Assembly: GCA_034190875.2 (NCBI GenBank)
Contig: CM067343.1
Coordinates: 63,362,751 to 63,426,750 of the forward strand
Source: Urechis unicinctus
Lineage: Eukaryota; Annelida; Polychaeta; Xenopneusta; Urechidae
Direction: 5' to 3'
Length of the DNA: 64,000 nucleotides
Within the stretch, counting starts at the first letter, position 1, and every line of letters starts with the position of its first letter. Below, in pieces: positions 6,701 to 62,949 of the stretch. The translations under genes and the position numbers were made by a program. Under the pieces are notes generated by a model. It made no database searches and had not been told where the DNA came from. It worked only from the letters and a program-made list of their open reading frames with translations.

Positions 6701-6719
6701 CATCACATAATCTTAGTGG

Positions 6720-7990
6720 GCATCCAGTGAACTAACACTGCACGTCATGATCATCAGCTGTTCTTTACCATTTCGTTTGCCAGTTACAAATGCTTGCACC
6801 AATTCCCGTCGCGTTACAGAAGTGTATGGTTCATTCAAAATTCATAAATTGCAGATAAAGGGTCGAAGCATATCCCTAGTGCTGGCAATTTCTACCAAAA
6901 CAGCAGTGACAAAACTCCCGTAAACAGTAAAGTGTGCTCTTAATGACTTCCTCCCGCACGTGCAACAGTGAATATTTGGCACTACCCGCACTCGAGCGGC
7001 ACAGATTCAACATTGGAATACAGAATTCGTCGCGTAATGCCTTTCAAAAGCTTCCATGAACATGCAAATCCAAAGACATCCATGTTCAAAGCCTAGAGTG
7101 TCTTAATGCCGTACAAATATTATCCACTAGGCCTTGTTAAACAGAACCACACCTCTAGCTGTGCCAGGTGTGGCGTATTTGCGCAGAATTGATAGATTTG
7201 GAAAATGGTGGAAATGTGATTATGGCTTATCATAAAATAAATACATGCGCGGACCAGTTAGGTAAACACCAATCGGTAATCGGTAGTTTTGTAGAACAGG
7301 TAAAACGAGCACATAAAGCAGACATGTTTGAGCTATCAATCTAGTTGAGGCCGTAAACTTGTCAGAATTGTTACTTCGCTTGAGGAACTAATAGATTGTT
7401 CAGTGAGCTAATTATCCTTTACTGGGTAGCTTTGTAAATAGTGAGTCATGAACCGCCGAGGCGATGATTCACTATGGTTGGGCTCCGCCATTGATGTTTG
7501 AAAATGAACCACAACTGTGAATATGCAGAGAACACAACAATCTTAATACGGCATTATATTGCGTTAAAAAACAATACTCGCTGTTATCATCATGTCAGCT
7601 AAATTGCATAGGTATAGCTCGCAGATGCACGTTGCTAACTAGCCCAACACGCTCACGTTTTAGCATATGTTCGCCCATTTGTCATTGGCAAACTGGTTGC
7701 TGTTATTGAGTCCATGCCAGTATTAACCGGTATTTGAAAAAAACATACTAAATGGCTAAAAAGGTATATAGCTCCATTCACGTTTTAGCATATGTTCGCC
7801 CATTTGTCAGAGTCCATCAGATTAACCGGCTTGTAACTTTTCTGAAAAAACATAGCGGCTTTCAGAAGTTTGCACGAATCAGCATTATTGATCGTTACGA
7901 CTACATCATAATCGCTACAACTATTTGCTGCGGTCAAACTAAATAGCATTTTGCGAATCTAACATGAATTGTCCATATCTCTGCAAAAGA
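6720..7990 (+). repeat. Tail of array unit H
   Basis: This block aligns with 40.1-41.5 kb in unit A and the matching part of B. The word AGAACAGGTAAAACG occurs exactly at 7,293-7,307 and 41,079-41,093. Around it both copies keep ACATGCG-GGAC, a GGTAAACA(C/T)CA word, CGGTAG, GAGCTAT and CTTGTCAGAA in the same order. Upstream, GCCAGTTACAAATGCTTGCA near 6,780 resembles AGCCAGTTACAAATCTTTGCA near 40,165. Downstream, TTGCTGTTATTGAGTCCATGCC near 7,700 matches TTGCTGTTATTCAATCTGTGCC near 41,450. A weaker third copy lies at 20,770-20,860. No open frame is shared. Confidence 0.7.
7653..7890 (+). repeat. Local tandem duplication, 125-bp offset
   Basis: A 32-base sequence beginning TCACGTTTTAGCATATG is identical at 7,653-7,684 and 7,778-7,809. 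The similarity continues afterwards (GAGTCCAT, ATTAACCGG, GAAAAAACATA), with about 24 bases missing from the second copy. The 32 bases without a mismatch imply the duplication is much younger than the unit that carries it. The 64-codon plus-strand frame starting at 7,752 lies across it and is probably chance. Confidence 0.85.
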
Positions 7991-7999
7991 ATTGTCTTT

Positions 8000-10900
8000 G
8001 CAGAAGTATGACGTATGTAACGGCAATTGCCATTCATATGGAGCGCTGACACAAAGGAATAACAAATATGGTAATAAATTCCTAGGGCTGCCGTTTTACA
8101 ATTCACTATCAGTTAGACCTGTAACTTAATGCCAAACGCAAGTACAAAGCAGAACAAGTGTATGAATAAGGCTTATGATTGCGCAAAATCAGCCGATAAG
8201 CTTAATATCAAAAAATTATATATTAAAGGACAATACTACACCACTTTTGCATCAGCACATTAAGTATGCAAAAATGATTAGACAGCCCAGCTTACCAAAC
8301 ACCTCGCTAGCGCACTATTCATGACCACTCAACCCAAAGCACTGAGATCCCATGACATTGACAAACACATGATGCACGAGGATGGTTTGCTTACATTGGT
8401 GCACCGCACACCGCAATAGCTCAACCAATTCTCATATCTGCAGCAAGCCATTGGTAGTTGGAAAGCAGCTCAATTCAGTCCGCGACCACTTCTAAATAAC
8501 TGGAAAAATATACGGGTTCTCACCACAATGTATGAAACCGAAAGGTGATGTTGAACCCCAAAACTATATCGATAAATTAATAGCATTTGTTTGTCTCAAC
8601 TACCGAGGTAAATATTGCAACATCTGTGTAGAACACAAACGCCAGAATCGTTAGTGATCCCATTACTAAAGCCTCGCAAACAGCAGACATTTGTATTTAA
8701 ACCAACTCTGACAGACAGTTCGGACAAAAGTTCAATGAGGAGGTCATCAAGATTAATGGAGAGGAGAGTATACTATGTTACCAAACACCAGACCTGCAAT
8801 AGTGAATGAATCTATCAGGCAATAAAACTGTTGACTCGTCCCACACGGCACCAGGACTCTACGACCTTTCCCATCCACCCTAATCTGCTTCCCGAAGTGC
8901 GATCGTCCATTCCCATCATATGCCATTACAAAACTACGTTAGAGTCGATAAATGGTAGCATCAGATGAATGGATGGCTTTCATTACCCCAGACGTAGAAG
9001 ATTTCGTTCATAGCATACGCAACGTAAGTGTCAATAACTAGTGTCAATGCAACCAGTGGACTGTCTATATTGATGTGGCGGTAATGGCTTACAGTGGCAG
9101 TTGATGGGTATTATTTTTGGAATAACCCCCTGCGGTCGAATGCCAAGGCTTCAGAAACGTGGAAGTATAGTTATTTCTCATGGAAGCAAGCTTGGAGCAA
9201 GAGTCGCCATGCAGCATATTATGTATCCCACCATGTAATATCGGTTCCAATAGCAGTCAACATAGACATAAATGGGCAACGATCAGTAATCAATATGATT
9301 ATCATAGATCCCTCTATCCGCATGCGCGCAGATGCACATCGAAATAAAATCTGATTATCGCCCAGTTTAATGCCAAATGTATATTAGACATAGTTGCATA
9401 GTATTTCTTCCCAAGTGTTCAATATTCACTAAAGGGTTTTGCACTGTACGGCGTCATTATGTCTATAAACCGTGTAACAATACAGATTTGGTTGATATGC
9501 CAACCTACTACGACCTCCAATTCATATTTCATGAGCTTACAATTTCGCAGATGACTGACCTTCCGTTGAAATATACTTGTGTTAGTAATATTTAAAAAAG
9601 TCAATAACTTCGTTGTGCAGAGGTTTGCTTGCATCAAACGAAACTAATCCATGCCTTAGATGTTAATGAACTGGCGAAGCAGAATCGGTCACTCAGCTAA
9701 TGTAGCCAATAGGTTGTCAATATGGCGATAAGAAGATAAGTGCAGCAGTGGCAATATATGGATAGAATCGATTTGATGCGCTGTCATTGGGAAAACTGCA
9801 ATCCATTTGCTGTTCTAACTCAGTCAGAATTGTTACCATGCCTAATGTAGAAACATAAAAGCGTAGTCATTGATCATCATCTAGATGACGTAGGTGGAAA
9901 ATGTTTTCATTGCCATGTGGCATTCGAAAGTTTCAATTGTCATTATCCATTAATTCAAGATTGATTTCATTTTCTTATTCATCAACCTGGATGTTGCCGA
10001 TAAGAATGTCTACATCAGCCTTCCTCATATATCAATTCAAATACACGAGTATGGAGCACAAAAAGGTTGCTATGATATTTTTCTAGCGCAGAGTCAGTTT
10101 CTACAATACGTTTTGTGACCCAGGTGTCGTAGTTACAGCCAGCATACTAACATGACTTTTATAATGGTCGAATACAAATCCATACTTAAATACTGTACGT
10201 AATATCTTTAATGACTCGTTCGACATTGTTTTGCTGTGGACCATAGGAAAGGGTCGCACAAACACTGTACACAATGCTGTAGTGGTGTATTCTGCAGATA
10301 AAAAAGCATACTATTAACAGAAGTTAGCATTTGCTTTGAAAAACGTTTGGCCGACGTTTTGTCATTGTACAGATTCTTACATGTGTCTGAAGTTTTTCAA
10401 TGAATCGGTTCTATGATAACGTTAACGGCTGGTTGTAGTATACATTATACGATTACCTTAATGATTATACAGCAATTGAATTATACAAAGCAAAAAGAAA
10501 TGTATATCGGCCACGTTTGTTTGCGAGACTCCTGGTGCTGTCTTTACATAAAAGAAAGTCGATTTTACAAAATTGCCCAACAGAAGGGTAGATCGATTGG
10601 CCTATAAAAGTATCTATTCAATGTTCCGTAGATAATCTCACCTTAAAATTTTAATATGTTATTAACTTTCTGCACCAGTTCATAACTTCCCGAGGTACAT
10701 GCGATCAGAAAGCTGCAAATTTGCAAATGACAGACACTCTAACAGGGAGACCAAAAACAAAACTTCCCTTACGAAGATATCAACAAGTACATATGTCAAC
10801 ATATAGACGCTTGGTGCATGAGACAGCTCAAAGCATTGCATCATTCCATCCTAAACTATGCATGCTACATCTTGGCATAAGTCGCATTAAAGCATTTGCT

Positions 10901-13900
10901 GCTATATGCAGCAAAAGGCGGTCAACATATTGCACTGTAAAAAACAACTACAAGTGTCTATCGCCTAAATGTGATGATTTATATTTTCGTGAAAGTCATG
11001 ATGAGATTGCTGCATTGAACAAAGTACATATTAGTGAGTGTGGGTGATAATAAAATATCAAATAATGATACCGGCTTTACTGCCATCACCATGTTTGCCA
11101 GCTCTCACTTTGTCTCACAATTGGACAATACTCTCCTTTTAACTCTACGTAAGCCTCGTAATATCAAAAGAGGCCGAATTCTGTGCTAATGTGTATTTAG
11201 CTGGTCTATCAAACCGTAAACCAGACGGTGAAGCACTCGATTGGAAATCTATAAAAGAGTAGAGATTTAAACACGAGGCAGCGTCATTATCAAGAACAGC
11301 AGGCGAAGATGTAAGGTTATATGCTAACGTAATAGCACCCAGTTCTCTCAACCAAAAACAAAGCTTTTCATTCATTAGTTGTGGCTTTAGTGATAAAGAA
11401 GATGGTTTTGCATAGCAGACATTCTGTGCGCTTGGGAGGGATGTTTGTTCATAGCTTTTCTCTGATTTAACGTTGCTAGTTTATGCATTATATTCTATAC
11501 ACATTCTTTCTGCGTTTATCTTACTAGGTCATCGGTTTTCCCGCAAACGCTTACTGTAAATAAGAGTACTTAACCATTGAAGAAAACAGCGGCGTGTTTT
11601 TGACATTCTACATACCCAACGGCGGTATTTTGTAATTGTCTTGGAATCTATCTACCATATGGTCAGCTTTGACCATCACCTGATATATATCCAAATCACC
11701 CATTTTAATTTGGTATAAAGTGAGTATCATATTTGCGAATTGTTCCTGGATAATAAGCCACGTATACCATTAACACGTTCACGTTAAAAACAGTGGTCTT
11801 CTCGCACATTCAAGGACGTTTAATGTTTTGGGGTAGCAGCCCAAGACCTCTCCGTCTGCCTTTGTGATATCTGCGACGTAAGTTGCCAATGCTGTACAAC
11901 CATGGTTCAAGAAGAATCAATCGAAGCAAATGAAGAATAATATCGCCGTTTGTTAAATAACACCGTGTCGTCCATAAGAATCCTACTTTAATGCCTGGAA
12001 CAATCAATCGGTCCTTCAATAAGTTATAGATGTCTGACAGCTCGACAATGGCTATTTGCGGTCTGCAGTGTGGTCCAGGTCATCTTGCTATAATTGTCAA
12101 TTGATACAAAGCATCAATAAATCAAAGCTTATCAACAGCCGCTGTTCCATTATCCCAGCAGTTTTCCGGAACTTGTCTAGGGACCCATAACAAATGGCCA
12201 AAAATTGTTGAGTTGAGCGTGACCCATGCCATTACCTACCGTAAAACCTACTATCAAACAACCCCGCCCCCTTCACCCTGTGTTTCGGACTATGCGGTGT
12301 CGAATGCTTGGTAATACCATTTTACTGGTCCTGCAGACGATGCCACTGTTAAGCACGTCACCGATCCTTTAGTAACCCACACCGATTCCGGTCGTTAATC
12401 AAATGGTTTTCTACTTCGTTAATTGAATTGCCGTCATCAACAAAATTCCAATCTTGGCCTTGGAGGGGCTGAATTTGCCTTATATAAGGTAACCAGCGTC
12501 ACACGCGTCACATCAGACAGCCATTAACCATAAAGACAACTAACACAATCAGAAGTTGAATCACCATGCGAATGAGGAGTGGTACTCAATCACTGAAGCA
12601 TACTAGCACTCTCATCCAGCGATGCAATCCATGCAATTACTTTACAATTGGACTTAAAATTAATAGAATTAATCATCCTGAGCCCTCAACACGGACACCA
12701 AATGCCTTTGCAGCGGTGTACCCTACGCATTATCAGACTGTTTACAAGCATAATGCTTCATTTTACACTCTTTAACAAACTGCTGCATGCCTATTTGCCA
12801 CCAGCTCTCTGTGTTGTTTACAAATATGAAGAGGACATAAGCTGGAGAGCTTTACACGTGTTTACCCAAATGGGAATGATAACTTCTGTTTGCTCAACAT
12901 TGTAATGCAAGACACTACTTGGTATTGCTGCTGTGTTGAAAAATATATGTGATGTTTCAGTCAATTACGAACGGCAGCAAATCAATTCCGTCTTACCATT
13001 ACTATTAGCACACAATACTAAAACCTAAGTTGAAACCTAACATACATATATGAAGTTAGTTAGCGTTGTCTGCATTGTGGAAGTAAAGCATCGCTACAAA
13101 TGCAAAATGAAAGGCGAATACTTACGTCAAAGTGTTCTCCATGTGTTCGTTATTCTAAGCAGAGCACATTCCTTTCCCTACTCAATTTCATGGTTCATGT
13201 GAAGCAGAAGATGTACTTGACAGCCTAAAGCCAACAGTGCAGCTGTGACCGCCCACGTGGCCTCACTCTATCTGTTCATCAATTCCATGACTGCACACAT
13301 TTCAACACTGATGCAACTGCCTACTGATTCGGATTTTTATTATCAAATTATGAGTTTGCAATCTATTAGCTTTGTGCCTGACATGCGTCACACAAGGAAT
13401 TTGTGACTAGTGCATAATGAATTCGAGAACGTCGGCATTCAGGTAAAGATTGCTATAGCTATTTAGTGGATAAGTGTTAGTTTTCGTTTTTCGTTGCTCT
13501 GTTTTAAATCGTGTTTTCTTGTTGTAAAGTTTCATACAGCATCTCCTGTTAATCGATTTTATCATATTGAGTATAGCGTGTTCACAATATGCATCGCAGT
13601 TGCCCATTTGAACTGACACGATTTAAAGTTATATCACGGAAACCAATCATTTATGTGTTCTCGTCGCCGTTCATCTCTTGCACCAAGAGGCGTTTTGAAA
13701 GTAAGAAGCCAGTGATACAAAGTAGCATGCGTCCGACCCTCGATACAATTACAAAGTACTGTTCATCAATTCCATGAGATGCAGTGATCCATGGTCATGG
13801 CGCAGATGCAAATTCCTACTCTGATTTGGATGTTTTCTCACTTACACTCAATATAATGGGGATTCTTACCATTATCAGCAGACCAGCTTGTAGGCGTATT

Positions 13901-14040
13901 TGGTCGATTATTAAAAAGATTTTGCAAAAATGCTTGAACCATAGTTTTATCGCGCCATTGAGCAATTTGAAGAGAACTTTTCACTTGCGCGGGTGCGAGT
14001 TGTCACATTAGCGGATTTACATTATTATCATTCATGCTCA
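8000..14040 (+). repeat. Array unit F (ancient, degenerate)
   Basis: Blocks in order: 9,480-9,600 aligns with 29,930-30,060 in D (ATGACTGACCTTCC exact at 9,551 and 29,989); 9,680-9,850 aligns with 17,040-17,200 in G and 22,440-22,620 in E; 11,160-11,740 aligns with 31,410-31,890 in D and 53,390-53,880 in C (TTTAGCTGGTCTAT exact at 11,196 and 31,436); 11,950-12,060 aligns with 54,260-54,420 in C; 13,125-13,450 aligns with 36,250-36,560 in A (AAGTGTTCTCCATG exact at 13,130 and 36,255). The order of blocks is the same in all units. The reading frames across these blocks contain stops, and none is shared. Stretches between the blocks (8.0-9.4, 10.0-11.1, 12.1-13.1 kb) show nothing I recognise. 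Confidence 0.65.
13272..13777 (+). repeat. Direct repeat inside unit F, 487-bp offset
   Basis: CTGTTCATCAATTCCATGA occurs exactly at 13,272-13,290 and 13,759-13,777. The following bases (GCAGATGCAAATTC.TACT-CTGATTTGGAT against GATGCAACTGCCTACTGATTCGGAT) also align loosely. This suggests a partial internal duplication within F. The corresponding place in A (about 36,395) has only one copy. Confidence 0.55.
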
Positions 14041-17000
14041 TATAACGCGTGGAGTCAATTAGAAACAAATAATAAAAAAAGAGTGCGCATTATATACTCT
14101 TATTTTCAAACACTCCCTTCTTCGTAATAACGATTAATTGGAGTTGCGAGGGATTACAAAACAATACTCAACACACCAGTATCTCAGTTATTTTGAATAT
14201 TGGAGTATACATCAAGTGTTTTTTTCACAAACAAATCCTTGTTACAGTAGCACAGTTGCCCATTTGAAGGAAATATATCTGACAATCGATCTAAAAGGTA
14301 TATTCACATAAGTAAATCACTGATAGTTAGTCTACTTAAATACGTATTTTCCCCAACGTCAAAAGTCGTCGTTTCAGATAGTCTATCGTTTAGAAAATGT
14401 AACTCGAGATTGCTAGTGTGCCCGAACTAAGCATAAAATATCTCGATGATGATAACATGCAGATTTCACGCAAAACATTGGCAGCACAAAACGAACGCAT
14501 TACTTACGTTCCCGGCTTTCCGATGTACTGAAACTTACGACCTCTCCGATTATGGGTGACATATAGTGCACACTGTCGCACAATAAGCATTACAAATCGT
14601 GACTGCTCGCCTACTTGAATTCATTGTAGATTGTATTGAACAGATACGACAGTGGTCCAGACATATATACCAGGAACATATCATTTATCCTAATGACAAA
14701 TGATAATACTCTGGGCTATATATCACAAGGGGAAATCGAGGAACGCTTTACCTAATCGATACATTTGCTTTAATAATTATCCCATATTTAAACAATGTGG
14801 GACCAAAACCCGTTTGTTCAGACATTGCTGTTTTACTTCGAGGAAGCAAACAGCTGCTGCATGTTTACTCACGTGCCAGAGTAATCGGATGAGCAGCGTT
14901 TCCGGCTTACTGATTGTAGTACTATTTATGGTCAAGCTGAAGATTTCAGAATCCACAACACGTACAGATCCTATCAACGAGTTTAGCATATATTAGAGAT
15001 GGCAGGTTGAGCAATTGTGTGATATTTGATGCAGCAATTAGTACACCGCACCCCTACTACCTCACACACAGCTAACTGTAGAACCATCAAGGCTAGGTAA
15101 ATCGAGTTACATATCATCATCGGATATAATCAGGCAGAGTTGGCCAATGGGCTGGAGAGTTCTAAGTAGTATGTGGGGAATATTACGATATAACCATCAA
15201 GAAATACAAGGTGTTAAGCAACACTGCGCATTGAGCAATAATATATTTCGGTAGTCAAAAAGAACTCATTCACACGATGGTTGTGATGTCTTTATCATGT
15301 TCATCTAATGTTTCATCTGTATAGTAATGGGGTTGCAGTGGCAGTGTAAAGGTTAACAGCCAGCAATGGGATTCGTTTTGCTAATGTAACACTCTCGGAA
15401 TTATCCCTGCGTACCAGTCGTTTAGATATGAAAGCCTAGTAATTGGGTCATTTATTTTCCTCATTTGCAGTCCAAGAATTCGATATTTCCTACGCATAAT
15501 ATTTGGAGGTTCTAGACCTCACAAATAAGTATTTGTTCTGCTTGTAGAGGATAAACATCAGTGTGATGACGTTGCTTCATCAGTTCAATGAAAGCATAAC
15601 ATACCTAGATGTACGTTGAATGAGAGTGCTGACAATTAGTTTATGGAAGTAGTTTTTAAGCCCAGCGCCGTGGCAGTTCTCCAGATTTCAAGCAGGCTAC
15701 AGCAGGTAACAATTTGTATAACTTGCAACAAGACGGACGGAAATAAAATTACAACTGGCCATTGATGAACAGATGTTTATGATAAAGGCTACGAGCAAGA
15801 GGTGCCAAGCAGTGATGTTTGTAGCCAACGGCGTGCGATCCGTTACTATAAAAACATGAGCTTCACCACTAGTGTTCAAATTATCAAGGATTGCGTGAAC
15901 TGTAAAATCATCCACTAATCTTGCAAGTCTGAAGGAAATCGCCAATCTGCCCCACGTGATTAAATAGTTTTAAAGGCCATAAATGTATATGACAGCTGCT
16001 CTTCCACTACTGAGGACATCACTTACCAGTATGTAGTATGCACCGTGAAATGATATCTGATCAGCAGAACCTCTACTTAGTAAAAACATCATCCTTGATC
16101 CTTGAAAGTTTATTGAGATATTTCAAATGTCGATAACACTACAATATGGCTTAGCAATAATGTCAAGTAATCAGTCAAGTACTGTGCGCCGTATTTTAAC
16201 TACCAATAAAAACTGTGTGGCATTTTTATGGGTAGTTTGCTAAGCTGTGACGACCTCTTACTAGTACTTCAGCAGCGTTCAATGTCACAGATGGCTGAAC
16301 ATCCCTTGATTTATTGCTTCGCTATATGGCATAGAACATGTTTTATAGTTTATTGCTGGGTGTAAATTTGACGACTGCTACAGCAGCATATATACTTCTG
16401 CCCCTAAACATACGCCAATTATCATCGGTTTGGTACGTGGCGAAATGATACAGCATTGTTGATGCACAAAATGCGATTTATAATTATCATCCTAGTACGC
16501 GATTGTTGTCCAAAATTTAGGCATACCACATGCTACAGTCGGGCAGAGTGCATCAATATGGGCATCATTAACGAGGCTGGGCGCCAATTTTTATAAAAAT
16601 TTACAAATTGTTCTGACATACATTGAACGCCCGAATATCATTTATTGATTCAAACGAAATATAAAGCAACTCAATTTAGTGTCGTAATAACATGTAAGTG
16701 CACGTTTAATCGGTCTTCGACTGACAACATGTAATGTATATGTGTAATGCATGTCTCAGTGTCCTCCATGATAACGACTACATAATCGCAAGGTGTAATC
16801 TGCGTTTGTCATTGCTTATCATTCACAAAATTCGACTTCAACGAAATTGCAACAAAATTGATAAAATTTATTAACTGTGACAGTTTTACAGTAATGGTTC
16901 ATACCTTTAAAACCCGCAATTCACATAATCAAGAACGTATTATTTTACGAAAACGCATGCACTTTGGTAAATGGCATTATTCTATACTTTCACTGTGCCG

Positions 17001-17199
17001 AGTTGTGCTTGCATTAAATATGCCATTGCGAACCTTGAACGGACTGAAACATTCATTGATGTGGTGTTAATGGGTTATCTATATGGCGATAGCAGGGTAA
17101 GATGAATGGTGGCAATGTATAATCGATTTACCGCGCAACGTAGCCGAAGTCATCAATCAATTTGCTTTTGTAACCCAGTCAGAAAAGTTCCTTCCCTCC

Positions 17200-17345
17200 A
17201 TGTTCAAGCCTAGAGAGAAGATAAGTGCAACCATTCATCATTGTTTGGTTGCCACCATTTAGACACAATCTTCAGTTTGAAGATGTTTTTTTTTCAATGT
17301 AATGCAACGACATAAAAGCCTGGTATAATTGGGCATTTACTATCA
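17200..17345 (+). repeat. Ancient internal tandem duplication of about 107 bp in unit G
   Basis: A segment ending in GACACAATC lies next to a diverged second copy beginning at the AAAAGCCTGG word near 17,314. Unit E has the same arrangement at 22,620-22,810 and unit D has only a single copy (30,170-30,240). It is degenerate, so the exact period is an estimate. Confidence 0.5.
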
Positions 17346-17959
17346 CCTGGGATCTACCATTCAGACTTAATCAATCGTTATAGATTTGTTTTATTTCTAT
17401 GTGATGCTTAAAGGTCCCAATTATCGTTATTTGTTATAACGAGATCGATTTCTTTTATGTTTCGTCTACTAGAACGGTGATGATGTAAAGCGTCGGCAAT
17501 GGGACCAACAATATATAAATGTTGCGCACATTGGCTTTTTAGTGGCAACTAATCGCTACTGGTCGGACTTATTGAAACATACAATCCGTAGAAGCAAAGA
17601 TTATTTTGTTAGGGTCCGGCAATATCGTTCTCTGCTTGAGGTTTGATTATTACCAGAATCGATAATAACAGCATAGGGTGAGTATATTGCAATATATGTA
17701 TAATGAACTGATTCTTAGGTGTTATTGATACCAAATGGCATGTATGATTGGCCACCGAAAACAAAATGCTCAGTAGCAGCAGATGACATGAAATGACAGG
17801 TACATGAAAATGTCGTAGATAGGAAATATCAACGAAGTACAATTTGAATAGTTGTACCTGAGTCGAGCAGCCAATGTCCTATCATCAAACGATCTGATAT
17901 TAAGGTACCACATGGTCAGTTTTGTATCTCTATACACGATCAGTGTCGCGCTATATCAC

Positions 17960-18005
17960 CATTACAGGATTGATGTATTATTCATTACAGGATTGATGTA
18001 TTATT
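17960..18005 (+). repeat. Two-copy 23-bp tandem repeat
   Basis: CATTACAGGATTGATGTATT occurs twice in direct succession, starting at 17,960 and 17,983, without mismatch. It is a recent local slippage event inside unit G. Confidence 0.9.
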
Positions 18006-44086: not shown

Positions 44087-44190
44087 CTGATTTATTTGCT
44101 TATTCGTTCTCGTGTGCTTTGTTGCTGTTGTATCAAATAATAATTGTTCCTGTACACATGCTGTGCGAAAATAAAGATTATTATTATTAT
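43541..44190 (+). mobile_element. 5'-truncated CR1-superfamily non-LTR retrotransposon
   Basis: Copy A reads CAGATTT-TAACCG at 35,412-35,424, and copy B has 650 extra bases at exactly this point. The insert begins abruptly inside a reverse-transcriptase-type ORF, contains its stop codon, and then about 100 bases of 3' UTR. It ends with an AATAAAG signal followed by (ATT)n merging into the flanking T. This is the usual form of CR1/Crack/L2-like elements: truncated at the 5' end with a microsatellite-like 3' end. No clear target-site duplication is visible beyond a base or two. It is oriented on the plus strand and is absent from every other unit, so it arrived after the A/B duplication (or was lost precisely from A, which is less likely). 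Confidence 0.9.
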
Positions 44191-48254: not shown

Positions 48255-48324
48255 ACTGAACAATGCCATTTGTATCTACTGAACAATGCCATTTGTATCT
48301 ACTGAACAATGCCATTTGTATCTA
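48255..48324 (+). repeat. 23-bp tandem repeat in copy B
   Basis: Counterpart of 39,446-39,528: about three units of ATTTGTATCTACTGAACAATGCC, beginning mid-unit with ACTGAACAATGCC. The upstream ATTTGT seen in A is missing here. Confidence 0.9.
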
Positions 48325-49107
48325 TGTGATGTGCTTGCTATGTGATAGATGGCAAACTATCGGATGAGCATTAGGATGCAATGTCTGCGTACAATACCGA
48401 ATTGTGTGGTTCCGTTAGCAAATACCGTGGGTGTTATTGGAATAGCCCATGGAGCGATGTTGCAGCAACATTTCATAGGTAGTGTTACGTGTTAAACGCC
48501 AATGAAGACGGCGTAACCAAGGGTCTGGTTAAAGTCCACTAGTTTATGGTCGTCTGTTCTATACTACATTTTGTCTCCGCAATCTGTTAAAAATTATTTT
48601 TACATTGAATGTGCAAATGGTTGTGCTGAATCCTGTCTTACGACATATATTTCAGGAGATTCTGATGCATTTTTGCATTATTTATCCGGGACTATAACAC
48701 CTGTATCGGTTGATAAGCATTTATTTATTTCGCGATTTCAAGTTTATTAAATGTGCCTGAGTACTCATATCAATTTGCAAATGTTAACATGGACATGTTG
48801 GACCGGTATATGTTTCTGGTATAATGTCCATGGAAATCCCATGTGCCAATGCAATTAAATGCAACATTTGACAGAAGTAACATGATGGTCGAGAATGGTG
48901 GTCAGCATCCAATTTAGTAGCAACGTACGTGATGATAAGTAGGTACACTTTATATTTTATTAGCCAGTTACAAATCTTTGCATGAACCACTCGGGCATGA
49001 GACAACGAGAAGCATTCCAAATTGCCATTTGTCAGAGAACTTATCGAAACATTTCCCGAGTGTAGGCAAATCTTTAAGCTGGTGTGAGAAAGCTCGAGGT
49101 TATTGCA

Positions 49108-49272
49108 TTGGTGAGCCCTTGGTCCACACTTTAGGCACTATCTGCTCTGCTTATCAATAACTGGTGAGACCTTGGTCTACACTTTAGGCACTATCTGCTC
49201 TGCTTATCGAATATTGGTGAGACTTTTGTCCACACTGTAGGCACTGTGTCCGCTCTGCTTATCGATTACTGG
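49108..49272 (+). repeat. 53-bp minisatellite, three units (copy B)
   Basis: Three units of the repeat that has nine in copy A. The flanks on both sides are identical to A. The first two units resemble several A units, while the last carries the GTGTCCG variant shared with A's last unit. The difference accounts for nearly all the length difference between A and B outside the retrotransposon. Confidence 0.95.
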
Positions 49273-50387
49273 TGCACTTTACAAACAAATCTAACTCAAT
49301 TTCCACAATGGAGTACAAAAATGGCCGCTATAATACCTTTCTGTGCGTATCAAAATAATAATAATATCTTTATGGGTCAAAATATGCGTAGAAATATATT
49401 TCACTTGTTAAGAGAAATAAAACTTAGCTTATTACAGCTGATGTGGTTCATTGTGACAATTATAGAAACGTGAATCCAACTAATCCATATACATGCGGGG
49501 ACTGGTTTGGTAAACATCAGTCGGTAGTTTGGAATCTATAAACATTAGTATTAGAACAGGTAAAACGGGTGCTTGAAGCAGTCATATGGGAGCTATACAT
49601 CAAGTCGTGGACAACAGCTTGTCAGAAATGTTCCTTCACTTGAAAGACTTCAGGCTTGGGATGCAGAGTTAAATATCATCGGTATTGTGTCTCTATGGTG
49701 CAATCCATCATCTGGCAGTTGCGCGGGAACAATCTTGATGTACGGAGTGTTTAATCAATTCCTCAAGCGCTTGGCAAACTGCGTCATACGTAAAACTACT
49801 TGTATACAGACCGTGTGTAGATGCCCATAGCGGTAGGAAGCACTCATATTTAGTTTTCAGCGTTAATCACCGGAATCACTGTTATATGTATATACCTACT
49901 TGTTGAGCACGGATGATTGCTGTTATTCAATCTGTGCCTATATTAAAGTATTTACCTATATAAAGGCATACTGATTGAAACATGGCTTCATTTATAGATT
50001 ACTGTGATCAGATCCACTTTCAGATATTTCACGCGTCAGCATCATGATCGTTAGGGTCACAGCAATAAGCGTATTCAATGTTAGCCATAACCTAGCGGAG
50101 TCCATGTTTCTGTCTCCAAAATTGTTATCTCCATCCAATATTATTCGATTTGTCAATATCTGCGCAGAGCAGCGCTGAAAGATTTATTTTTTCAGAAGAG
50201 TTTCACATGCATTGACAATTGAGCATATAGAACGCTCACTTCAGCACCAGGGGGTAATAATTGGGGTTATAAATTCCAACCGCTTTGCAATTATCTCCCC
50301 GTTGGACTTGTTTATTGTTTGTCTGACTCATCTAAGCAACAAAACACGGGCACTTATAATGCATTTGATGGCGCAGTACATTAAGGG

Positions 50388-50795
50388 TTGGAGCTGGGAC
50401 CAAATCAAGACTCTCTTTCGCATATTTCACAAACATCTCATGCCCTCACAAGTATCCCGATTCCACCCTTATCCCGCATGCAGCACAACAACCCAGACCT
50501 TACCAAAAGCACCAGACCAAGCACCCACCCCAAGCTAACCCAACCGTCCCCACCCAAAGCACATTACCTCACCCAATATATAACCGAAGAATATCCAAGT
50601 ACTAAACACTACTCCAATTATAGCTACTCGGTACAACACTACCAACGCAACTATCCCATAAACCAATATATTCCCAGACACACCGCAGTGGGTCAACGCA
50701 GGCACTATAATTCCACAAAGTCAGCATTTCAAAGCCAGTACGTGTACCTATTACGTGCACCACTGCATATAAAGATAGTAAGCGTAGCAGGCTAA
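50388..50795 (+). other. Copy-B counterpart of the G-poor tract and its open frame (135 codons)
   Basis: Same tract as 41,913-42,341, with the frame ending in unique unit-C sequence (..KIVSVAG) instead of the B start. The C-terminus therefore depends only on what lies beyond the duplication breakpoint, which argues against a preserved protein end. No domain is recognised. Confidence 0.2.
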
Positions 50796-51140
50796 ATCCA
50801 TTTCCCCAGCACCGTATTCAATAGGGTTAGACACCTGCATTAAGTAAGGTATCTAGCATGCTTACATATGTGGGAAACAGATGTTTGTAGATATAATAAG
50901 GAAAAACAGAGAAACTGGGCATTTTGCATTGTATTTTGCTGATAGCTTAACAGTACAGCTGCTTCTACACAACTGACAGGACTATCATAAATATATTCTA
51001 CAAACCGACAGACCGGGCAAACTGTGGTTCCTTAACAATTGGATATTTGCATTGTTAAAGACTCTTAGCAGTAGTTGAATTCGGCATAAGAGGAATAAAC
51101 AGTCCAGACGGACTCCCGCGATTCATGATTTATTTGATAA

Positions 51141-51206
51141 GTTGGTTAGAAGGTTGGTTATTTGCTTGCTAGCTTGCTTGGTAGGTTAGTAGGTTGGTTG
51201 CTTGGT
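51141..51206 (+). repeat. Short GGTT simple repeat in unit C
   Basis: Counterpart of the longer tract at 26,561-26,725, with the same downstream sequence. About 65 bases of GGTTGGTTA and GCTTGCTTGG-like words. Confidence 0.85.
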
Positions 51207-53656
51207 GTAATGCACGATGAGAGGAAATTCCTCCCAAGGCTTTCACGTAACGAAACTTTGTGTATCCACGTAGTAATGAAGTAGTTTCGCACTTCGTGTT
51301 ATGAAAATGGTTTATTCTGCAAGCTGTCATTTTCTTCGCAGAAAATAGTTTCTGCACTGAGCATCGTGTTCATTTACTATGGGTATGTTAAAATAAGTTA
51401 ATTAAGAGCGAAAAGTATTATTTCTCAGTGATCAATATGGCATTTAGCTTGGGATCAATGGCAGGTGTTGCAGTGCGCTTTGCTTGTGAAAGAAGAAAAC
51501 ATGCTTTGTGTTATGACAAAACAACAAGTGATAAAGCAAGATATGCCTGGGTCTAACTTCCGTCGGTTGTAAATAACAACGCTATGTTAGGCACTGTTTT
51601 CCACTACTTTACTGCGTTATCCAACAATAAACCACGAGTACCATATGCTTATCAACGAAGCAACCCTATATTTATAACATTCCTGGTATTTGTGGTGGAA
51701 CATCATGAAAGCTTTATGGCATCTGCGAAACTATTTAATTCATACACGCTACATCTGCTCAACATGTTTACTGCTACACACGAGCCAGGCGGAAATCAAG
51801 CGACTATCATAAATACCTTCCCTGAAATGTACGGTATAACGGCAGATGCACCGAATAACAAACTACCGTTGTCGTAATATTCATCTAATGAATGACATAA
51901 TGCTTTCCAGTTACGGAAAAATTTACACAACTAAGCTTTTTACGTACAAAGCGTCGTGTTTTATCACGATGAATACCTGTTGTAATTCAATAAATCATAT
52001 GTCTCATATACCCCAGGTGAACATCACGTTGCCTGTCTCAGTGGGTACAAATCAAACACCAGCGCGTGCATGTGTTACTCAACCCATAAACGTCTGTGCA
52101 AGGCAAACAGCAGGCATGTAGTTTTGCAAACCCGTGTGATCCAATCAGTTAAAACCACAGCGAGGTCATCACGATTGATGGAAATGAAAGTACACAATCA
52201 TGTGGCAATGAACTTCTAAAACTCATAAACGCCAGCCGACATCGGGGGGCAGTGGGCTTCGTCGTCAGAGCCGGCCACTGGATTGTTGATTGGTGTGTGA
52301 ATAATAATAATTTTGTACTTACTGATCCATGCCGCCGTGTCCATATGTTGTATGTCTATTGCACAAATCGACTTGATATCGCTTCATTTTTCCGCATATG
52401 GGTATAATTTACGTTGAGCTTCTAGAGACTAATTCAGCTGTTGTGAGGACTACATTGCGTTGCGAAAGTAAAATTTAAGTATGTTGCGGTTGATCAATAG
52501 ACACCGGTGAAAATGCCTCATATGATGTTTGGAATAGACGCCCATAGAAAATGTATGTTTTTGTAACCCGATATACTAGTGGCACTGTCCGTTAGGGCAT
52601 TGATAGTCACATAGATATCATCGCCAGCAATATCGCCAGATAATGAACCTAGTGTTGGGATGACAATAGATAGGATTTCGAAATAACAACACAGATTTGT
52701 CACTTTGGACCAGAAGCAAATCCTTATTTAGTTTATAGGCGAAACTCAGCCGGCACTTGTGGGGGTCAGTGATTTAAACAAATATACGGAACAATGTCTG
52801 TAAGAATTGGCAATTTAGTGGTCTGCTTTGGGTTTGAATATTGCCAGAAGCGCTGGGGTGATTGAAGAATATGGTGAGCATATTGCTGTATATGAGGAAA
52901 TAACCAATTCATGCGCAGTGGTTATTGAATCAGAATAGAATAGATGAATATATACGGGAAACACTATGCTAGGTCGTATCAGATGAAAGCAGCGGTGCGT
53001 GCGAATTGAAAAGATTGCAAATCACTACTTATGAGGTACAATCGGAACGGTGGTACAAACATAATATGGTGATGATGCACAAAGGAAATGATAAACCTGT
53101 CGTTTATTCACTAATGTTGTGCAATGGTTCTACGATATTTTCCACCATCTACATCTAATATCATGGACATGTTGTAAACATGAAGCCCTGTAGGCTTCGG
53201 TAGATATGTTTGCGCACCAATCACCTCAATATCGCCAACGACCAGGTTTATTGCAGTTGCAACCTTACACCATAATAATGTGCTCCTTCGTACCCTGGGT
53301 AATAGTAGTTGGCACGTGTAAAGATTGTAATCGTTATTTGATCATCTTTGAAAAGATCGAGTTAACAGAAGATTCAATCCGTTGTTTGACAATATTGATC
53401 GTTAATGTTTATTTACCTAGTCCATTAAACAGCAAACCAGAGGGTGAAGTAAGCGGTTATATATCAATGTAACAATAGAGATTAGAATATAATCTGATGT
53501 CTTAAACAGAGCACCAAGAGTAACAGGCAAAGATACTACGTTAGTCGCAAGTATAATAGCTCTCTCAGCGTCGAAACGAAGCTGTTCATTTATTATTTGT
53601 GCCATCGTTGATGCAGTATACGGTTGCTTGCATAACAGAAAATGCGCTTCGGGCGT

Positions 53657-53672
53657 GGGGGGGGGGGGGGGG
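53657..53672 (+). repeat. Sixteen-base poly-G run
   Basis: A run of 16 G within an aligned block. D has only GGAGGGG at the equivalent place (about 31,667). Probably slippage, or possibly an assembly artefact. Confidence 0.9.
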
Positions 53673-56600
53673 CTCTATTGTTTAGCTAGGTTATTGTTTC
53701 CAACAAGCGCTGACAGTTATTAGTTGTATTTATTTATTGAAGGGTGAAAGGAAGTGTTTTCTGTATGCCCATCAATTTGGTCGCATTTCTTGAAATTTTC
53801 AAGACATTTATCTACCATAAGGTAAGCATTGACTATCCTCTGGCTTATATCACTGTAATCACCCGTGTAATTTGTTACGAAGTGAACAACTTGACTGATA
53901 TGGTAAACCTTATTTGCATCAACTCAAATATTCATCAACTCCTTATTAAGCGACATGCACCCAGTGAATTGGTCATTTACGTCAAAAATACATTTATATT
54001 AAATTACTCATTTGTCGGTGGGAATAGTGGGTTTTGAAGGCTAGTACTAGCAGATGGGGACATTTACCGCGACGCTATATGCAAATGCTGCATATACACT
54101 ATGCGTGTGCAAAATAAGGAGCGAAGAACAATCAATCAGAGGATATGCTGAAGGCTATCGATGTGGTGAAACATTGTATGCTGACCAGGGCCAGGAATAA
54201 TTGAGCACATCAACTCACACTTTTACAGCCAGAGGAAATTAAATCAACTAATTTTTTCCCTGGCAAATAACACCGAGCCGTCCGTAAGCTCCAGGTGCTC
54301 GCTTTGAAGAACCCACCTTAATGCCTAGAACATTCAGTTGGCCCCATATTCTGAATCTAATAACAAGCCTCAGAGCCCACAATTTATTGATGTATGACGA
54401 CATGACAGGGCTATTTCCCATGAGCTCTTTTTTTGCATTAAAGTCGAAGACCTTCCCAACTGCGATGCACATCAGCAGATAATGTTTTAACGTGTGGAGC
54501 GTTTTGCAAATGGCCTGGAGGCGCCGATCGGAAGGAAACAATTGATAAACAGAATGACACGCTTATTTTTACAACAATAGGAGGGATAAAACATGATTCT
54601 TGTGGTTGAGTTTTGATATTATCAGGATCCATGGAGTAATATACTTCTGTTTAAACAGTCTTCAACAGTCAAAGGCGGGACAATGTACTTATTCCCCTGT
54701 GATCTGTAAAAAACGGTATGTTTACGAGAGTTAGTCCCTGTTCTTGTCTCTCATAGACACGAGGTTGTGTTGCCATTGTAACCTCGCAAATTTGGTACAG
54801 GCAATAGAGCATACAGACAATGGACATGCTTCCTCAATGTCGTTCGGCCACCTTTTGTACGTGTCCGATTGTTGATACTTAATCTCGATGTTTGAATAAT
54901 ACAGTACATGTTTACTTCCTGGCTATTTACAACACATTTAAACCCTTGGTCGTCAACGAATACACATCCAGACGCATTTCACAGAGATACGTCAATTAAT
55001 ATCAACCAATTGGCATCCTATCCTAACCCCTCAATACCGCCAAGCTCCACCAGACACTCCAGTGACACCTATATATATTTCAATGATATCCAGCGTACCC
55101 TCACACCCTTTAACTGACGTTACTTATAGTAAGGTGAGTCATTTGTTTTCGTTAACTTATCTAAAATCATTACTGATCCCGAATCTACAACCATATCTGC
55201 GTCCTGCTGATATCATTAGCTTTCTGATTCGATTCTGGCTTCACTTGTTGCAATTACTCAGCACTGATAGAGAGCAAAGCCTCCAACGCGCTTTACACTT
55301 GCTCCTACGATGTGGTCGGTGTGTAGGTATGTTCAAATAAGCAAACTGTTCACACCCCTTGCCTCATGTCATATAATGTATCATGATGAATTTACGATAC
55401 TGAAGTTGGCTAAACGAGTACCTAACATGGAGCCAGCGTCGTTATGCGACCCGTGAGCAGTTGATGGATTGTGTGGACACTATTTGCACGAGGTTACCCG
55501 CACACAATCTAGTCCCATGAGGCATATCTGTAGGACGCTTACTCTACCGATTTAACTTAAACTGTCGAAAACTAACAAAAATATACGAAGTGAAAACTGA
55601 GAGTCGAAGAGCTCAGATGCAGAGCATATTTCTTTCCGAGCTGAAATGCTCTACAGCTTTGAATGTGCTTTAGCATTTCCACAATGACGTGATTGCACTC
55701 ATGGCAGCGCTGATATTATTGCATACTGATCTAGATCTTGACACTAGTAAGATCAGTATAATTTCTAGTAGCTTTATGTCATACGGTCGTCACACAGGGG
55801 ATTAGTGAAGTAAGCATAGTGAATTCGACTGTTGTGAACGTCGACGCTAAGAGATCTGATTGGTGAAAGAAATTATGGTCCCATATAGTGGGTTAGTACG
55901 TGTGAGCTTCCGTTTTTGGATGCCGCTCTCTGTTAGTAGCCGCGTCATATGTGATGAAGACAGTGTTAACATTTTGTATCTAACCACATCTTAATCCTTC
56001 AATAACTCGATTAGGGAGGTTTTTGTAGCTCCCCACAAACAATAATTACAGCTCTATGAAGTGCATGTATCAGCCAAATCTCACCCGATCTCTATCCTCA
56101 GTTGCAGATGCATTCTGCTCGTAATTTACAATTTGTCCAGCTGTTTAATGATGATTTAAACACTTTGTTCGATGGTTATTCTGGTAGATCATTGAGATCG
56201 TTATGATGAATTGTCGAGCATTTGGCAGCACACTTGATCGACTGCAAACCAAATAAGATTTTGTTAACAATGAGTCACAATGATAATTTCTATCAATCTG
56301 ATTACTTGTATGGTACAGCGTCCACAATGTGCCATGTATATGAACAATTAGGAGCCATATCACAGACACACTTGATAAACAACTCATTTACCATATACGG
56401 GATCCGCATATAATAATTATCGGTCAAAAGCACATTTAAGGTGCTGGCATCGCCTTGTCTAGAAATTCAAACCGAGGCTACCTGAAGCAAACACATGGCG
56501 TGCATGTGACATAGTGATTTATCATTCGAGCACGACTTCACTATCGGGTAGTGCTGCAAACGCTTTGCTTCAGTGAATTAAGCTTACGCAATGCACATTG

Positions 56601-58130
56601 AATGCTGTCTTCATTCAAGGCGTTGGGGGGGGGACCCACAAGAAATCTTTAAAGCGGCATTGTCCTGCAAATGCATTCTGCATTTCAGGCACGCATATCA
56701 GCACTTATTTGAGCTGTCGATTTAAGTTTGCATGTGAACACTAAATGTGCAAGGACTATAACTAGATGTATAGGCTGCTAAGGATCTGATATCATCAACG
56801 ATCAGCACCCATTGATTCATACTGCTGGCCGTGAGATGCTAGCTTTTTATACCATCTGCACACGTTGTCTTGTGCAAAACAACTGACCAGAGGTACTGGA
56901 TGCATTCATTATGAAATAGCAGCCACCTCATCAACCACACTTGATGTTTCCATGGTCTGCCTGATATGCAAACACGTCAATTCTCTATTCTTACCCATCA
57001 TGTTCAGATAGGCAAATGCTATTGCGTGTGCCATTTGAATTATTAATTTCAAAGCCGTTTATTTATTACAGCAAAACTGTGGATGCATGTCCATTATAAC
57101 TCTTTGTGGAATAGCTGCATGACTATTTAGAATAGCTAGGGGTAACAGAACGATATTTGACTTAACATGTGAAGTATAATTGGTACATATTTCCTTCACA
57201 CAAGCGTTCCCTTTTAAATTGGCTCTGTTGTGCTAGTAAGCCAATATGGATATGATGTAATATTATCAATGAACATCATTAACTAGAATGCCCACGTTAA
57301 TTGGTAACAGGCATGTCAAACCATTACCATACATCCTATATCTGTTCTTTAAGATAGTTTACTTATATTGATGATTACGGATTACCACTTATATAATTAA
57401 CCCTTGGCTGAATGCCAGTTGACATTGTGAGTAGCTGATGAGCATTATTAATGGGACAAGAGACGGTGTTTTGAATAGTTCAAAATCTGTTTTACTCACG
57501 TTAATGCATGTGATGTTTATGCCACTTTTGAAAAAGCATTAAGGGTAAGCCATTTCTGCCATGGTGTTTATAGATGACCCAGCGTACGGGCGAATACTGA
57601 TAATTTAAGAAAATGTTTATTATGTAATTATTTGTAAATGCTTAGCCATGTAGTTTGTACGTCCGGGTACTTAGATTCCTCCATTTGCAACATAAGTTCT
57701 AGTCATAAAAAAAATAATTGCATTCACAAAATACAGAGCGTATATTATCTCGAAATATAAGCCAGCAAACGAGGACCAATAACAGCCCGCTGCTATGATA
57801 GTGATGCACGTTGCAGAGCAATTGTTCTTATATTGGGCTCGTCATCATGGAGAAAATGTTACACCGATCATAGAGCCGACATCGAGCTCAGTTAGCGCTG
57901 TGTATGTCATGAATGCAGTGCTAAAGCATTTACTGTTTGAGCTGCTATTTGTTTTGTAGAGACTTTAATATATGAAAGAGACTTTTAAAAAGCCCATCAC
58001 ACCGGGTATATGTTCCCTTCCACCAAGCACTAGTTGCTAGTAGTCACTTTCGGAAATACTATCTTCCGAGCCATCCTACCACGTGTACAAATGCTTCTTT
58101 ATAGTTATCGACGCGCAAATTGCGGCCGAA

Positions 58131-58938
58131 CGCGCATGGGAATAGGGGAGCAGCGCCAGATCCGAACCTGGGAGAACGTGCATGGGAATAGGGTAGCAGC
58201 GCCAGATCCGAACCTGGAAGAACGTGCATGGGAATAGGGGAGCAGCGCCAGATCCGAACCTGGGAGAACGCGCATGGGAATAACCTGGGAACGCGCATGG
58301 GAATAGGGGGAGCAGCGCCAGATCCGAACCTGGGAGAACGCGCATGGGAATAGGGGAGCAGCGCCAGATCCGAACCTGGGAGAACGTGCATGGGAATAGG
58401 GGAAATAGGGGAGCAGCGCCAGATCCGAACCTGGGAGAACGTGCATGGGAATGCCGAACCTGGAAGAACGTGTATGGGAATAGGGGAGCAGCGCCAGATC
58501 CGAACCTGGGAGAACGCGCATGGGAATAGGGGAGCAGCGCCAGATCCGAACCTGGGAGAACGCGCATGGGAATAGGGTAGCAGCGCCAGATCCGAACCTG
58601 GGAGAACGTGCATGGGATAGGGAGCATCCGAGGGTAGCAGCGCCAGATCCGAACCTGGAAGAACGTGCATGGGAATAGGGGAGCAGCGCCAGATCCGAAC
58701 CTGGGAGAACGTGCATGGGAATAGGGGAGCAGCGCCAGATCCGAACCTGGGAGAACGTGCATGGGAATAGGGGAGCAGTGCCAGATCCGAACCTGGGAGA
58801 ACGTGTATGGGAATAGGGGAGCGGCGCCAGATCCGAACCTGGGAGAACGTGCATGGGAATAGGGGAGCAGCGCCAGATCCGAACCTGGAAGAACGTGCAT
58901 GGGAATAGGGGAGCAGCGCCAGATCCGAACCTGGGAGA
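58131..58938 (-). repeat. 46-bp minisatellite, sixteen full cores
   Basis: The unit is CGTGCATGGGAATAGGGGAG then CAGCGCCAGATCCGAACCTG then GGAGAA. AGATCCGAACCTGG is present 16 times, plus truncated units near 58,279 and 58,450 and a disturbed unit at 58,616-58,636. It is much richer in GC and CpG than the host unit. Since 46 is not divisible by three and the unit has no stop in any minus frame, all three minus frames stay open for about 250-300 codons (58,059-58,952, 58,076-58,942, 58,105-58,854). That is an artefact of the unit, not evidence of a gene. It is absent from A, B and D at the aligned position just after the CCATCCTACCACG word. Confidence 0.95.
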
Positions 58939-59218
58939 TCAATGGAGATCATATGGTCAACAGATGGTCACATGTGATGCACTTTGCTGCACTGCAAACA
59001 GATGATCACAAACAGATCCCCTTAACGGTTCGATCTTCAACACCGATACAAATACGTCTTTATCAATGTAAGCATTCTGTTTATACGTGTCTGAAGTACT
59101 ATGGTACTTATGTTTATGATCGGCTTATTTATTGTCAGTTTTTCACTTCGACTGCACCTGCAGGGCGAATCGTCCGTACATCAGTATACCCACACACCGA
59201 CTCATTTGCATGCATACC

Positions 59219-59595
59219 ATCCACCCCAACCAATCTCTATTGAGTTAGACCCGTTGATACATGCATCGCTCTCGTCAGACACTGCTATGAATCACACCGG
59301 GCATCTGATTGAGATTAGCACTGTCTATTAATACCTACAAGTTGATTGTCAAAACCATCACATGTATCATATTCCTGTTGATCTACCTCTCGTACCTGAC
59401 AACCTCGGTGTCCTCGTAAAGTTAAGGTGAGTACCTATTCGCAATCACAACATGCTTCTAGTTCCGCGTATCCCTCGTCCTGGCTATGGATTAGTTCATA
59501 TGTACCATATGTTAACATACCGTGTTAACATACCGGTAATATGAAGGGCCTGGCATTTGGATGAGGTCCTTTTGATGCTACTATGATGCAGTTGC
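59219..59595 (+). repeat. Highly conserved D/C block, C copy
   Basis: Partner of 32,700-33,075. Similarity starts abruptly at the CATCCACCCC word and ends at GATGCAGTT, after which C and D differ completely for several hundred bases before the 63-bp repeat relic. No open frame. Confidence 0.9.
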
Positions 59596-59949
59596 TTCGC
59601 GGAACTACGACCAAGTAAAGTAAGAGCAAACCGATGCCTTTGCACCCTCTGACCCTGGGTGCTGATTCATAACAATAAGACAGCGCACACTAGATAGATG
59701 TACACTCAGCTGGTGATCAACTCCCTGACGTACTTTTCCAAGCAGCTGGGGGTATTTCACAGCTGCAGACCAGACACAAATACTTTCAACACGGCGTTAA
59801 CAAAGCCTTCTTATGCATCAAATATCCAATGCGAAGGACGTTACAACATAACGACTATTCTTGGAACACTTCAGAGGTGAAAGGTGTGAGCGTCGGATAG
59901 GAAGAATATGGTAGTCGGATTGTAACATTATTCGACTTTGAATATTGAC

Positions 59950-60081
59950 GGCCATACCTTTGTCGCTGCTTTGATCATTCGGCGTGTACATACGGCCATA
60001 CCTTTGTCGCTGCTTTGATCATTCGGCGTGTACATACGGCCATACCTTTGTCGCTGCTTTGATCATACGGCGTGTACATAC
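59950..60081 (+). repeat. 44-bp tandem repeat, three units
   Basis: Unit GGCCATACCTTTGTCGCTGC then TTTGATCATTCGGCGTGTAC then ATAC, at 59,950, 59,994 and 60,038. Only one mismatch is seen (CATTC to CATAC in the third unit), so it is recent. Confidence 0.95.
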
Positions 60082-60084
60082 GGC

Positions 60085-60143
60085 GGAGGAAACGTTTGGC
60101 GTCCCGGATGGAACTTGGCGAGAACAGTGTTTCCTCTGCCTCA
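60085..60143 (-). repeat. Single relic unit of the 63-bp repeat
   Basis: GAGGAAACGTTTGGCGTCCC then GGATGGAACTTGGCGAGAAC then AGTGTTTCCTCTG matches one unit of the 33-kb array (AAACATTTGGCCTCCC.GATGGAGCTT..CGAG.ACAG.G.TTCCTCTG). On the minus strand it reads EETLFSPSSIRDAKRFLRRM, similar to the array peptide, but no longer frame follows. Downstream, 60,310-60,385 resembles 33,820-33,890 (ACTTCATACATA, TAGTTTGA, ATCAACG..ACAGCAAAGAT), confirming positional homology. Confidence 0.8.
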
Positions 60144-60389
60144 ACGAATTCTCAATAGAACAACTGATTTTAAGCAGAACAATGCAATAAAGATATTAAA
60201 ATAATAATAAGTAGAGGCATATCAACAGTTACCTCGCTTCATTGCAGCTAACATATAGCGTTTAGTTTGATGCTTACCGGTTCATCTTAGCACGTTCTTT
60301 GTAATGTATATAACGCTGACTTCATACATAATACACCATAAACTTAGTTTGAAGTTAATCAACGTGACAGCAAAGATAATCACCATAAA

Positions 60390-62935: not shown

Positions 62936-62949
62936 GAAATGATAGTTGG

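Follow-up and report, generated by a model that had tools for sequence, protein, structure and literature searches.

In this work, we analyzed a 64,000-bp stretch of the genome of the annelid Urechis unicinctus (the window; positions 1–64,000 correspond to C2:63,362,751–63,426,750, C2 being contig CM067343.1), together with flanks of 250 kb on the left and 10 kb on the right (324 kb in all). We found that a dense repeat array of ~275 kb, which becomes sparser further left, has its right end in the window, where it occupies positions 1–60,600. The array is probably a locally confined, nearly neutral, and hierarchical non-coding structure made by repeated local duplication. Its lower level consists of monomers of ~8–9 kb, the alignable parts of which are mostly 65–82% identical between monomers (the newest pair excepted). 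Its upper level consists of super-units of ~34–53 kb that are 83–90% alike, three in direct orientation (U1, U2, and U3) and two inverted (I1 and I2). Block order, coding tests, and five genome-wide queries that placed every match at one locus support the picture of an old, head-to-tail, non-coding, and locus-confined array that a preliminary description, made from the letters of the window, had drawn.

Organization of the Array

Self-comparison of the window, the dot-plot check that the preliminary description had asked for, gave many off-diagonal matches, and five first-order Markov sequences modeled on positions 1–60,600 gave none at E ≤ 1e-3. Repeats at least 1 kb apart within the window (E ≤ 1e-6) cover 52.1% of 6,720–60,380 and 0% of both 1–6,720 and 60,381–64,000; all 52 of these long-range pairs are direct and none is inverted. 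Profile searches, in which 400-base window tiles were compared with the fetched 324 kb (tiles in three minisatellites left out), revealed one cyclic block order that runs through approximately seven units of the window, with losses that differ unit by unit. For these searches, blocks 00–18 were defined on the monomer at 34.4–42.3 kb, and the monomer limits taken from the tiles are approximate (Table 1). This order and the uniformly direct pairs uphold the claim that one array carries the same blocks in the same order and orientation. The six word links that had been quoted for it were recovered as exact words of 14–23 bases, displaced by no more than 4 bases from where they had been placed (the link 7,293/41,079 was one base off in register), and all six fall inside significant self-alignments, the weakest with an E of 3.0e-7.

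At the upper level, collinear match chains connect the super-units in both orientations. The direct chains contain 42 (U1–U2), 39 (U2–U3), 33 (U1–U3), and 21 (I1–I2) matches, and six inverted chains of 35–43 matches each join the I and U units. Identity at aligned letters is 0.905 for I1–I2 (11,103 sites), 0.889 for U2–U3 (28,837 sites), 0.871 for U1–U2, and 0.850 for U1–U3; between inverted and direct super-units it is 0.832–0.846 (U3–I1, 0.846; U3–I2, 0.843). Over whole chains, harder stretches included, identity is 79.6–83.8% among the direct units and 89.6% for I1–I2. Judged by eye from the block order, with no formal count, the whole array holds roughly two dozen monomers.

The right edge of the array lies at ~60,600 of the window (~C2:63,423,350), as copies elsewhere in the fetched region were found for 92.1% of 1–60,600 vs 4.2% of 60,601–64,000. 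Across C2:63,148,750–63,423,350, 87.2% is repeated elsewhere in the fetched region. The left part (63,112,751–63,148,750) is sparse, with 24.8% repeated in pieces that are 64–90% identical. The stretch 63,114,150–63,120,750 has an inverted copy at 63,086,615–63,092,152 (77–85% identity), and therefore the duplication at this locus extends at least that far left. These limits revise the preliminary description in part. The array that it had placed at 6,720–60,380 is real but does not start at 6,720, given the coverage of 1–60,600 when upstream copies are counted. Units of 5–10 kb do exist but represent the lower of two hierarchical levels, and the head-to-tail orientation holds throughout the window but gives way to inverted copies upstream. 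What lies outside the window had been missed, namely, the level of super-units, the inverted half of the array, and its true length.

The locus is at 63.4 Mb of the 73.7-Mb C2. Base composition is 37–42% guanine plus cytosine (GC) across window positions 1–58,000, and the observed/expected ratio of CpG in the window is 0.81, which differs from vertebrates. N is absent from the window and the fetched array, and the 5 kb immediately right of the window is N.

Confinement to One Locus

The preliminary description had called for a whole-genome search and had stated that a unit dispersed in hundreds of places would be a transposon family. We searched the assembly (1,190,315,542 bases in 926 contigs) with five DNA queries of 1,001, 2,601, 2,526, 6,701, and 7,001 bases (19.8 kb in total, overlaps included), for which all first-look candidates were scored. 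These queries returned 11, 11, 9, 42, and 53 rows, respectively, and all 126 rows lie at C2:63.15–63.42 Mb; none of the five found the unit on another contig. This single-locus distribution argues that the array is not a dispersed transposon family, and a transposable element family was rejected for want of dispersed copies. A sixth query, taken from the sparse left part, returned 104 rows from the 40 of 2,008 candidates that were scored; those of the rows that fall elsewhere in the genome are confined to query parts 73–440 and 1299–1557, which look like inserted mobile elements.

Order of Duplications

Trees built with FastTree for three tiles (11, 14, and 12 copies, those under 140 letters dropped; grouping read from topology alone) mostly cluster the same monomer type across super-units, rather than neighbors inside one super-unit. 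As in higher-order repeats, same-position monomers of different blocks are closest in these three-tile trees, with monomers 5–7 of the window excepted. This grouping by monomer type indicates that monomers multiplied first and blocks later.

The newest event produced two adjacent tandem copies (34,181–42,301 and 42,302–50,780) that are ~97% identical. The motif GATAGT is found at both breakpoints and at the junction (Table 1), and comparison of the flanks of the breakpoints gave no match better than an E of 0.43. The newest tandem duplication is therefore a join at a 6-base microhomology, not a crossover between aligned monomers.

Based on these patterns, we propose that an ancestral non-coding segment of ~8–9 kb underwent several rounds of head-to-tail duplication, as the conserved block order shows. 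The chains and trees show that a monomer group of ~34–53 kb was then block-duplicated at least four times, which left three copies facing one way and two facing the other. Later, single monomers were duplicated again; a join at the microhomology is shown for the newest of these events, perhaps through replication slippage or end joining. Between duplications, the copies would have diverged nearly neutrally while gaining deletions, mobile-element insertions, and minisatellites; near-neutrality is suggested because a coding signal, a strong conserved core, and strand bias are lacking. Such a process would not require function, and existing copies may favor more duplication at the same place.

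Table 1. Repeat units and related features of the array. Positions are those of the window, except that values in kb are counted from the start of a 264-kb stretch at 63,162,751.
Feature	Position	Strand or orientation	Remarks
Direct super-units	~79–132, 141–191, 194–242 kb	direct	Collinear match chains
Inverted super-units	~3–37, 37–74 kb	inverted	Collinear match chains
Short inverted piece	~132.5–141 kb	inverted	Collinear match chains
Super-unit U3	1..42300	+	Left end ~6 kb outside the window, right limit only approximate; chains of 33–42 matches to the other four
Array right end	1..60600	+	Mostly third direct super-unit (U3) plus later local duplications; collinear match chains
Monomer 1	6640..13520	+	Blocks 14–17, then 04–05; profile tiles
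Monomer 2, partial	15620..19760	+	Profile tiles; 16,537–17,489 vs 21,908–22,905 at 65%
Monomer 3, partial	20490..24740	+	Profile tiles
Monomer 4	27090..33900	+	Profile tiles; 30,647–31,905 vs 52,617–53,893 at 74%
Monomer 5	34181..42301	+	First copy of newest tandem duplication; limits ambiguous by six shared bases
Monomer 6	42302..50780	+	Second copy of newest tandem duplication; ~650 extra bases near 43.5–44.2 kb of the window
Monomer 7	51136..60380	+	Strongly diverged, reaches array edge; profile tiles; 53/53 genome rows of 51,000–58,000 at this locus
GATAGT microhomology	34181..34186; 42,299–42,304; 50,774–50,779	+	Left breakpoint; junction; right breakpoint
63-bp minisatellite	33193..33799		9.6 copies; single similar unit at ~60,045–60,138
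53-bp minisatellite	40308..40793		9.1 copies; in monomer 5
46-bp minisatellite	58128..58938		~17 copies; near array edge

Coding Potential

Coding and Pfam tests gave no credible positive, in agreement with the view that the array is non-coding and no recognized gene cluster. In the profile alignments, codon periodicity of column variability was not found in 802 sliding windows (mean z of -0.005, standard deviation 0.95); the largest z was 3.66, with five windows above 3 and none above 4. An earlier and cruder pairwise scan reached a z of 5.9, but related copies entered it repeatedly, and a number of its highest-scoring windows fall on minisatellites; the best window clear of these is at 51,481. 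For the block at 51,438–51,919 and its four relatives, there is no shared open frame, the lengths of most gaps are not divisible by three, and the five aligned copies have no periodicity in ten sliding windows (permutation p ≥ 0.39). A synonymous/non-synonymous segment score identified 308 coding-like segments vs 315 in a reversed control.

Among the 371 window frames of at least 50 amino acids, 150 were scanned against Pfam (frames at the 58.0–58.97 kb minisatellite and beyond 61.5 kb were left out). The scan gave one BRICHOS match (E of 7.9e-8) and otherwise weak matches, none better than an E of 0.0007 among the 25 of 32 families listed. The BRICHOS match was set aside, as it lies in the frame of the 63-bp minisatellite, where no single stretch passes alone. 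Outside the window, 120 of 852 frames gave reverse transcriptase (two frames), PT repeat (two frames), and four weak single matches that include DNA polymerase B (frames not named). No credible Pfam gene was present in the frames scanned. The shared open frame or codon-like substitution pattern of a tandem gene family was not observed, and a coding gene cluster was rejected on frames, periodicity, segment score, and the part of the frames scanned against Pfam.

RNA, Chromatin, and Constraint

Rfam gave no match at gathering score on the window and none at E ≤ 1 on 34,000–44,000, and no tRNA was found by ARAGORN, so an array of tRNAs or known RNAs was rejected. An array of microRNA-like hairpins was also rejected, as, out of 6,050 folded windows, the 24 with the most stable folds and no mutual overlap had a best z of -4.5 and were not consistently conserved. 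A vertebrate-type CTCF-like pattern, from which the motif of this clade could differ, had one match with at most two mismatches vs 3.5 expected, and a DXZ4-like array with a CTCF site in each unit was rejected with this pattern. Substitutions polarized on U2/U3 (23,170 sites) are strand-symmetric in all six classes (p of 0.16–0.89) and give no hint of one-sided germline transcription. Outside minisatellites, the most conserved 30-bp windows have a variability of 0.10, approximately half of the median (0.197 for 1,566 windows), and no strong conserved core was found. Taken from the letters, signs for a non-coding RNA or regulatory array appear weak or absent.

Alternative Explanations

Several observations weigh against a nearly neutral array built in a simple hierarchical order. 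Divergence is uneven, with variable sites clustered in 20 of 76 tiles at p ≤ 0.01 (30 of 76 at p ≤ 0.05). Between super-unit pairs, it is also locally correlated in four of seven comparisons (rho of 0.25–0.47; the other three, with rho of 0.04, 0.20, and -0.22, are not significant). Against a mean of 83%, a few 80-base windows reach 95–99% identity. The top five coding-like segments (scores of 10.8–11.6, 4–13 codons each) exceed the control best of 10.0, and window monomers 5–7 group together in one tile tree. This last grouping, which later local copies would give, indicates that local turnover also acts. We read the array as mostly neutral, and weak constraint, gene conversion, or differences in mutation rate are also possible. 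At window positions 8,500–8,790, an 80-base window is 98–100% alike in three super-unit copies (mean of ~83%), which may be due to either recent gene conversion or constraint.

The uneven and correlated divergence would also fit a functional non-coding array, in which each monomer provides a promoter, an insulator, a long RNA, or a small-RNA precursor, and in which copy number or tandem organization matters, as proposed for DXZ4. The few highly conserved blocks (e.g., at 8,581 and 16,101) and the order and orientation long kept within the window point in the same direction. However, we regard such an array as rather doubtful in view of the missing Rfam and tRNA matches, the lack of an outstanding conserved hairpin or a strong conserved core, the substitutions without strand bias, and the CTCF-like pattern below expectation. 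It is likewise unlikely that the array is a working non-coding locus, namely, an old two-level macrosatellite-like element of non-transposon DNA with its tandem organization kept rather than its exact sequence, acting via chromatin or RNA near the putative gene at right.

The decayed gene family that the preliminary description had offered as an option did not fare well. Under this explanation, the units descend from duplicated multi-exon genes, the exons of which were small and none of which survived. In unit size and block order, the array does look like a tandem cluster of intron-bearing genes, exons below ~90 bases would slip past the periodicity test, and the five short segments outscore the best of the reversed control. 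However, periodicity is absent from all 802 windows, the segment counts do not exceed those of the control, the gaps of the 51,438–51,919 block and its relatives break the frame, and the best Pfam match among the window frames scanned is in a minisatellite frame, which makes this explanation, already disfavored, quite improbable. A transposon family or tandem transposon array could account for the mobile elements inside the region (reverse transcriptase and the weak DNA polymerase B match among the 120 frames, and dispersed elements in L034) but appears extremely improbable, since the five queries found the unit nowhere else in 1.19 Gb and the outside rows of the sixth, among the candidates scored, are restricted to two short parts. 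An assembly artifact, in which an array is simulated by haplotype copies kept in the assembly or by wrongly joined contigs, is very unlikely. Although the adjacent newest pair could be two haplotypes set in tandem, the other copies are just 65–90% alike, past ordinary haplotype divergence; many are collinear and separately mutated in both orientations; no N interrupts the window or fetched array; and the junction is a simple microhomology.

Minisatellites, Mobile Elements, and the Right Flank

The 53-bp minisatellite of monomer 5 has just 3.1 copies (49,109–49,274) in the 97%-identical sister monomer. Outside the array, positions 62,041–63,133 of the window contain a G-rich minisatellite (13-bp TGATGGTGGCTGG plus 10/50-bp variants), and the GC skew over 62,001–64,000 is 0.60.

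Several mobile element-like sequences were recognized. Frames like those of a Polinton/Maverick-type element were seen by eye at L016:3,300–8,000 (C2:63,236,050–63,240,750), where the inverted super-units give way to the direct ones. A LINE-like (long interspersed nuclear element) sequence inserted in the array was seen by eye from frames at L029:6,100–9,200 (- strand). The ~350-base repeat at L034:1,470–1,840 occurs on many contigs with matches in both orientations and is probably a small foldback element. Right of the 5-kb N stretch, a sequence like PIF/Harbinger transposase was noted by eye at L030:5,001–5,600.

A putative gene possibly begins just right of the array edge. Window positions 61,425–61,529 and 63,346–63,379 (+ strand) may be its first coding exons (MSTAPSAFVLKEGDIKLSLNTSPLAPSPANLSREQ / RYLKLNKNPIT), with donor- and acceptor-like ends recognized by eye. 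No Pfam family and no convincing PDB match were found for this putative gene.

Comparison With Known Systems

The preliminary description had left three options open, and "megasatellite" fits best among them, despite a divergence of the units far beyond what is usual. The kilobase-scale, head-to-tail units of a megasatellite are present, approximately seven in the window and with all 52 pairs direct. High similarity among units is not: the newest pair alone reaches 97%, whereas other monomers are at ~65–82% and super-units at 83–90%. As far as its letters tell, the array behaves as a higher-order repeat yet lacks near-identity, and its monomer is no dispersed mobile element. A literature search over titles and the beginnings of abstracts found no description of such an array, which is no claim of absence from print.

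In human long terminal repeat (MaLR) megasatellite arrays, six monomers of ~3.5 kb each are described as forming one higher-order repeat (PMC2588610). The array reported here is like them, as described there, in its tandem kilobase monomers, a higher-order unit of several monomers, and later block expansion. However, those monomers are described as transposon pieces in arrays on several chromosomes, whereas here the monomer was found at one locus only and is larger (~8–9 kb), and the array is far more diverged and partly inverted. DXZ4 is described as a non-coding macrosatellite that occupies one locus and is bound by CTCF (PMC3218863). The two are alike, on that account, in being single-locus tandem arrays that are not obviously coding. 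DXZ4 is portrayed there as consisting of uninterrupted 3-kb GC-rich units with a CTCF site, whereas the units here are larger, have a GC content of 37–42%, and are interrupted and diverged, with the vertebrate-type CTCF-like pattern not above chance.

The trees of this array, which mostly group by position in the super-unit, are similar to those of alpha-satellite higher-order repeats, in which monomer types diverge first and monomer blocks then amplify, such that trees group by block position. Unlike alpha-satellite, the monomers here are ~50 times longer, few, and far less homogenized, and the locus is not known to be a centromere. Clusters of segmental duplications joined at microhomologies, which as described are often gene-carrying and young, share with this array the local duplication of large blocks in direct and inverted orientation and the microhomology at the junction. 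They differ in that no gene was found here and that copies of several generations have persisted next to one another. The evolution of higher-order repeats is known mostly from short satellites, the homogenization of which wipes out history. Here, the kilobase monomers are too diverged to homogenize, which may leave several generations of duplication and inversion legible at one locus, along with the growth of minisatellites and the insertion of mobile elements. Such a record of genome growth would be free of the confusion of selection on genes, and it may make self-feeding local duplication in non-coding DNA a testable question at this locus.

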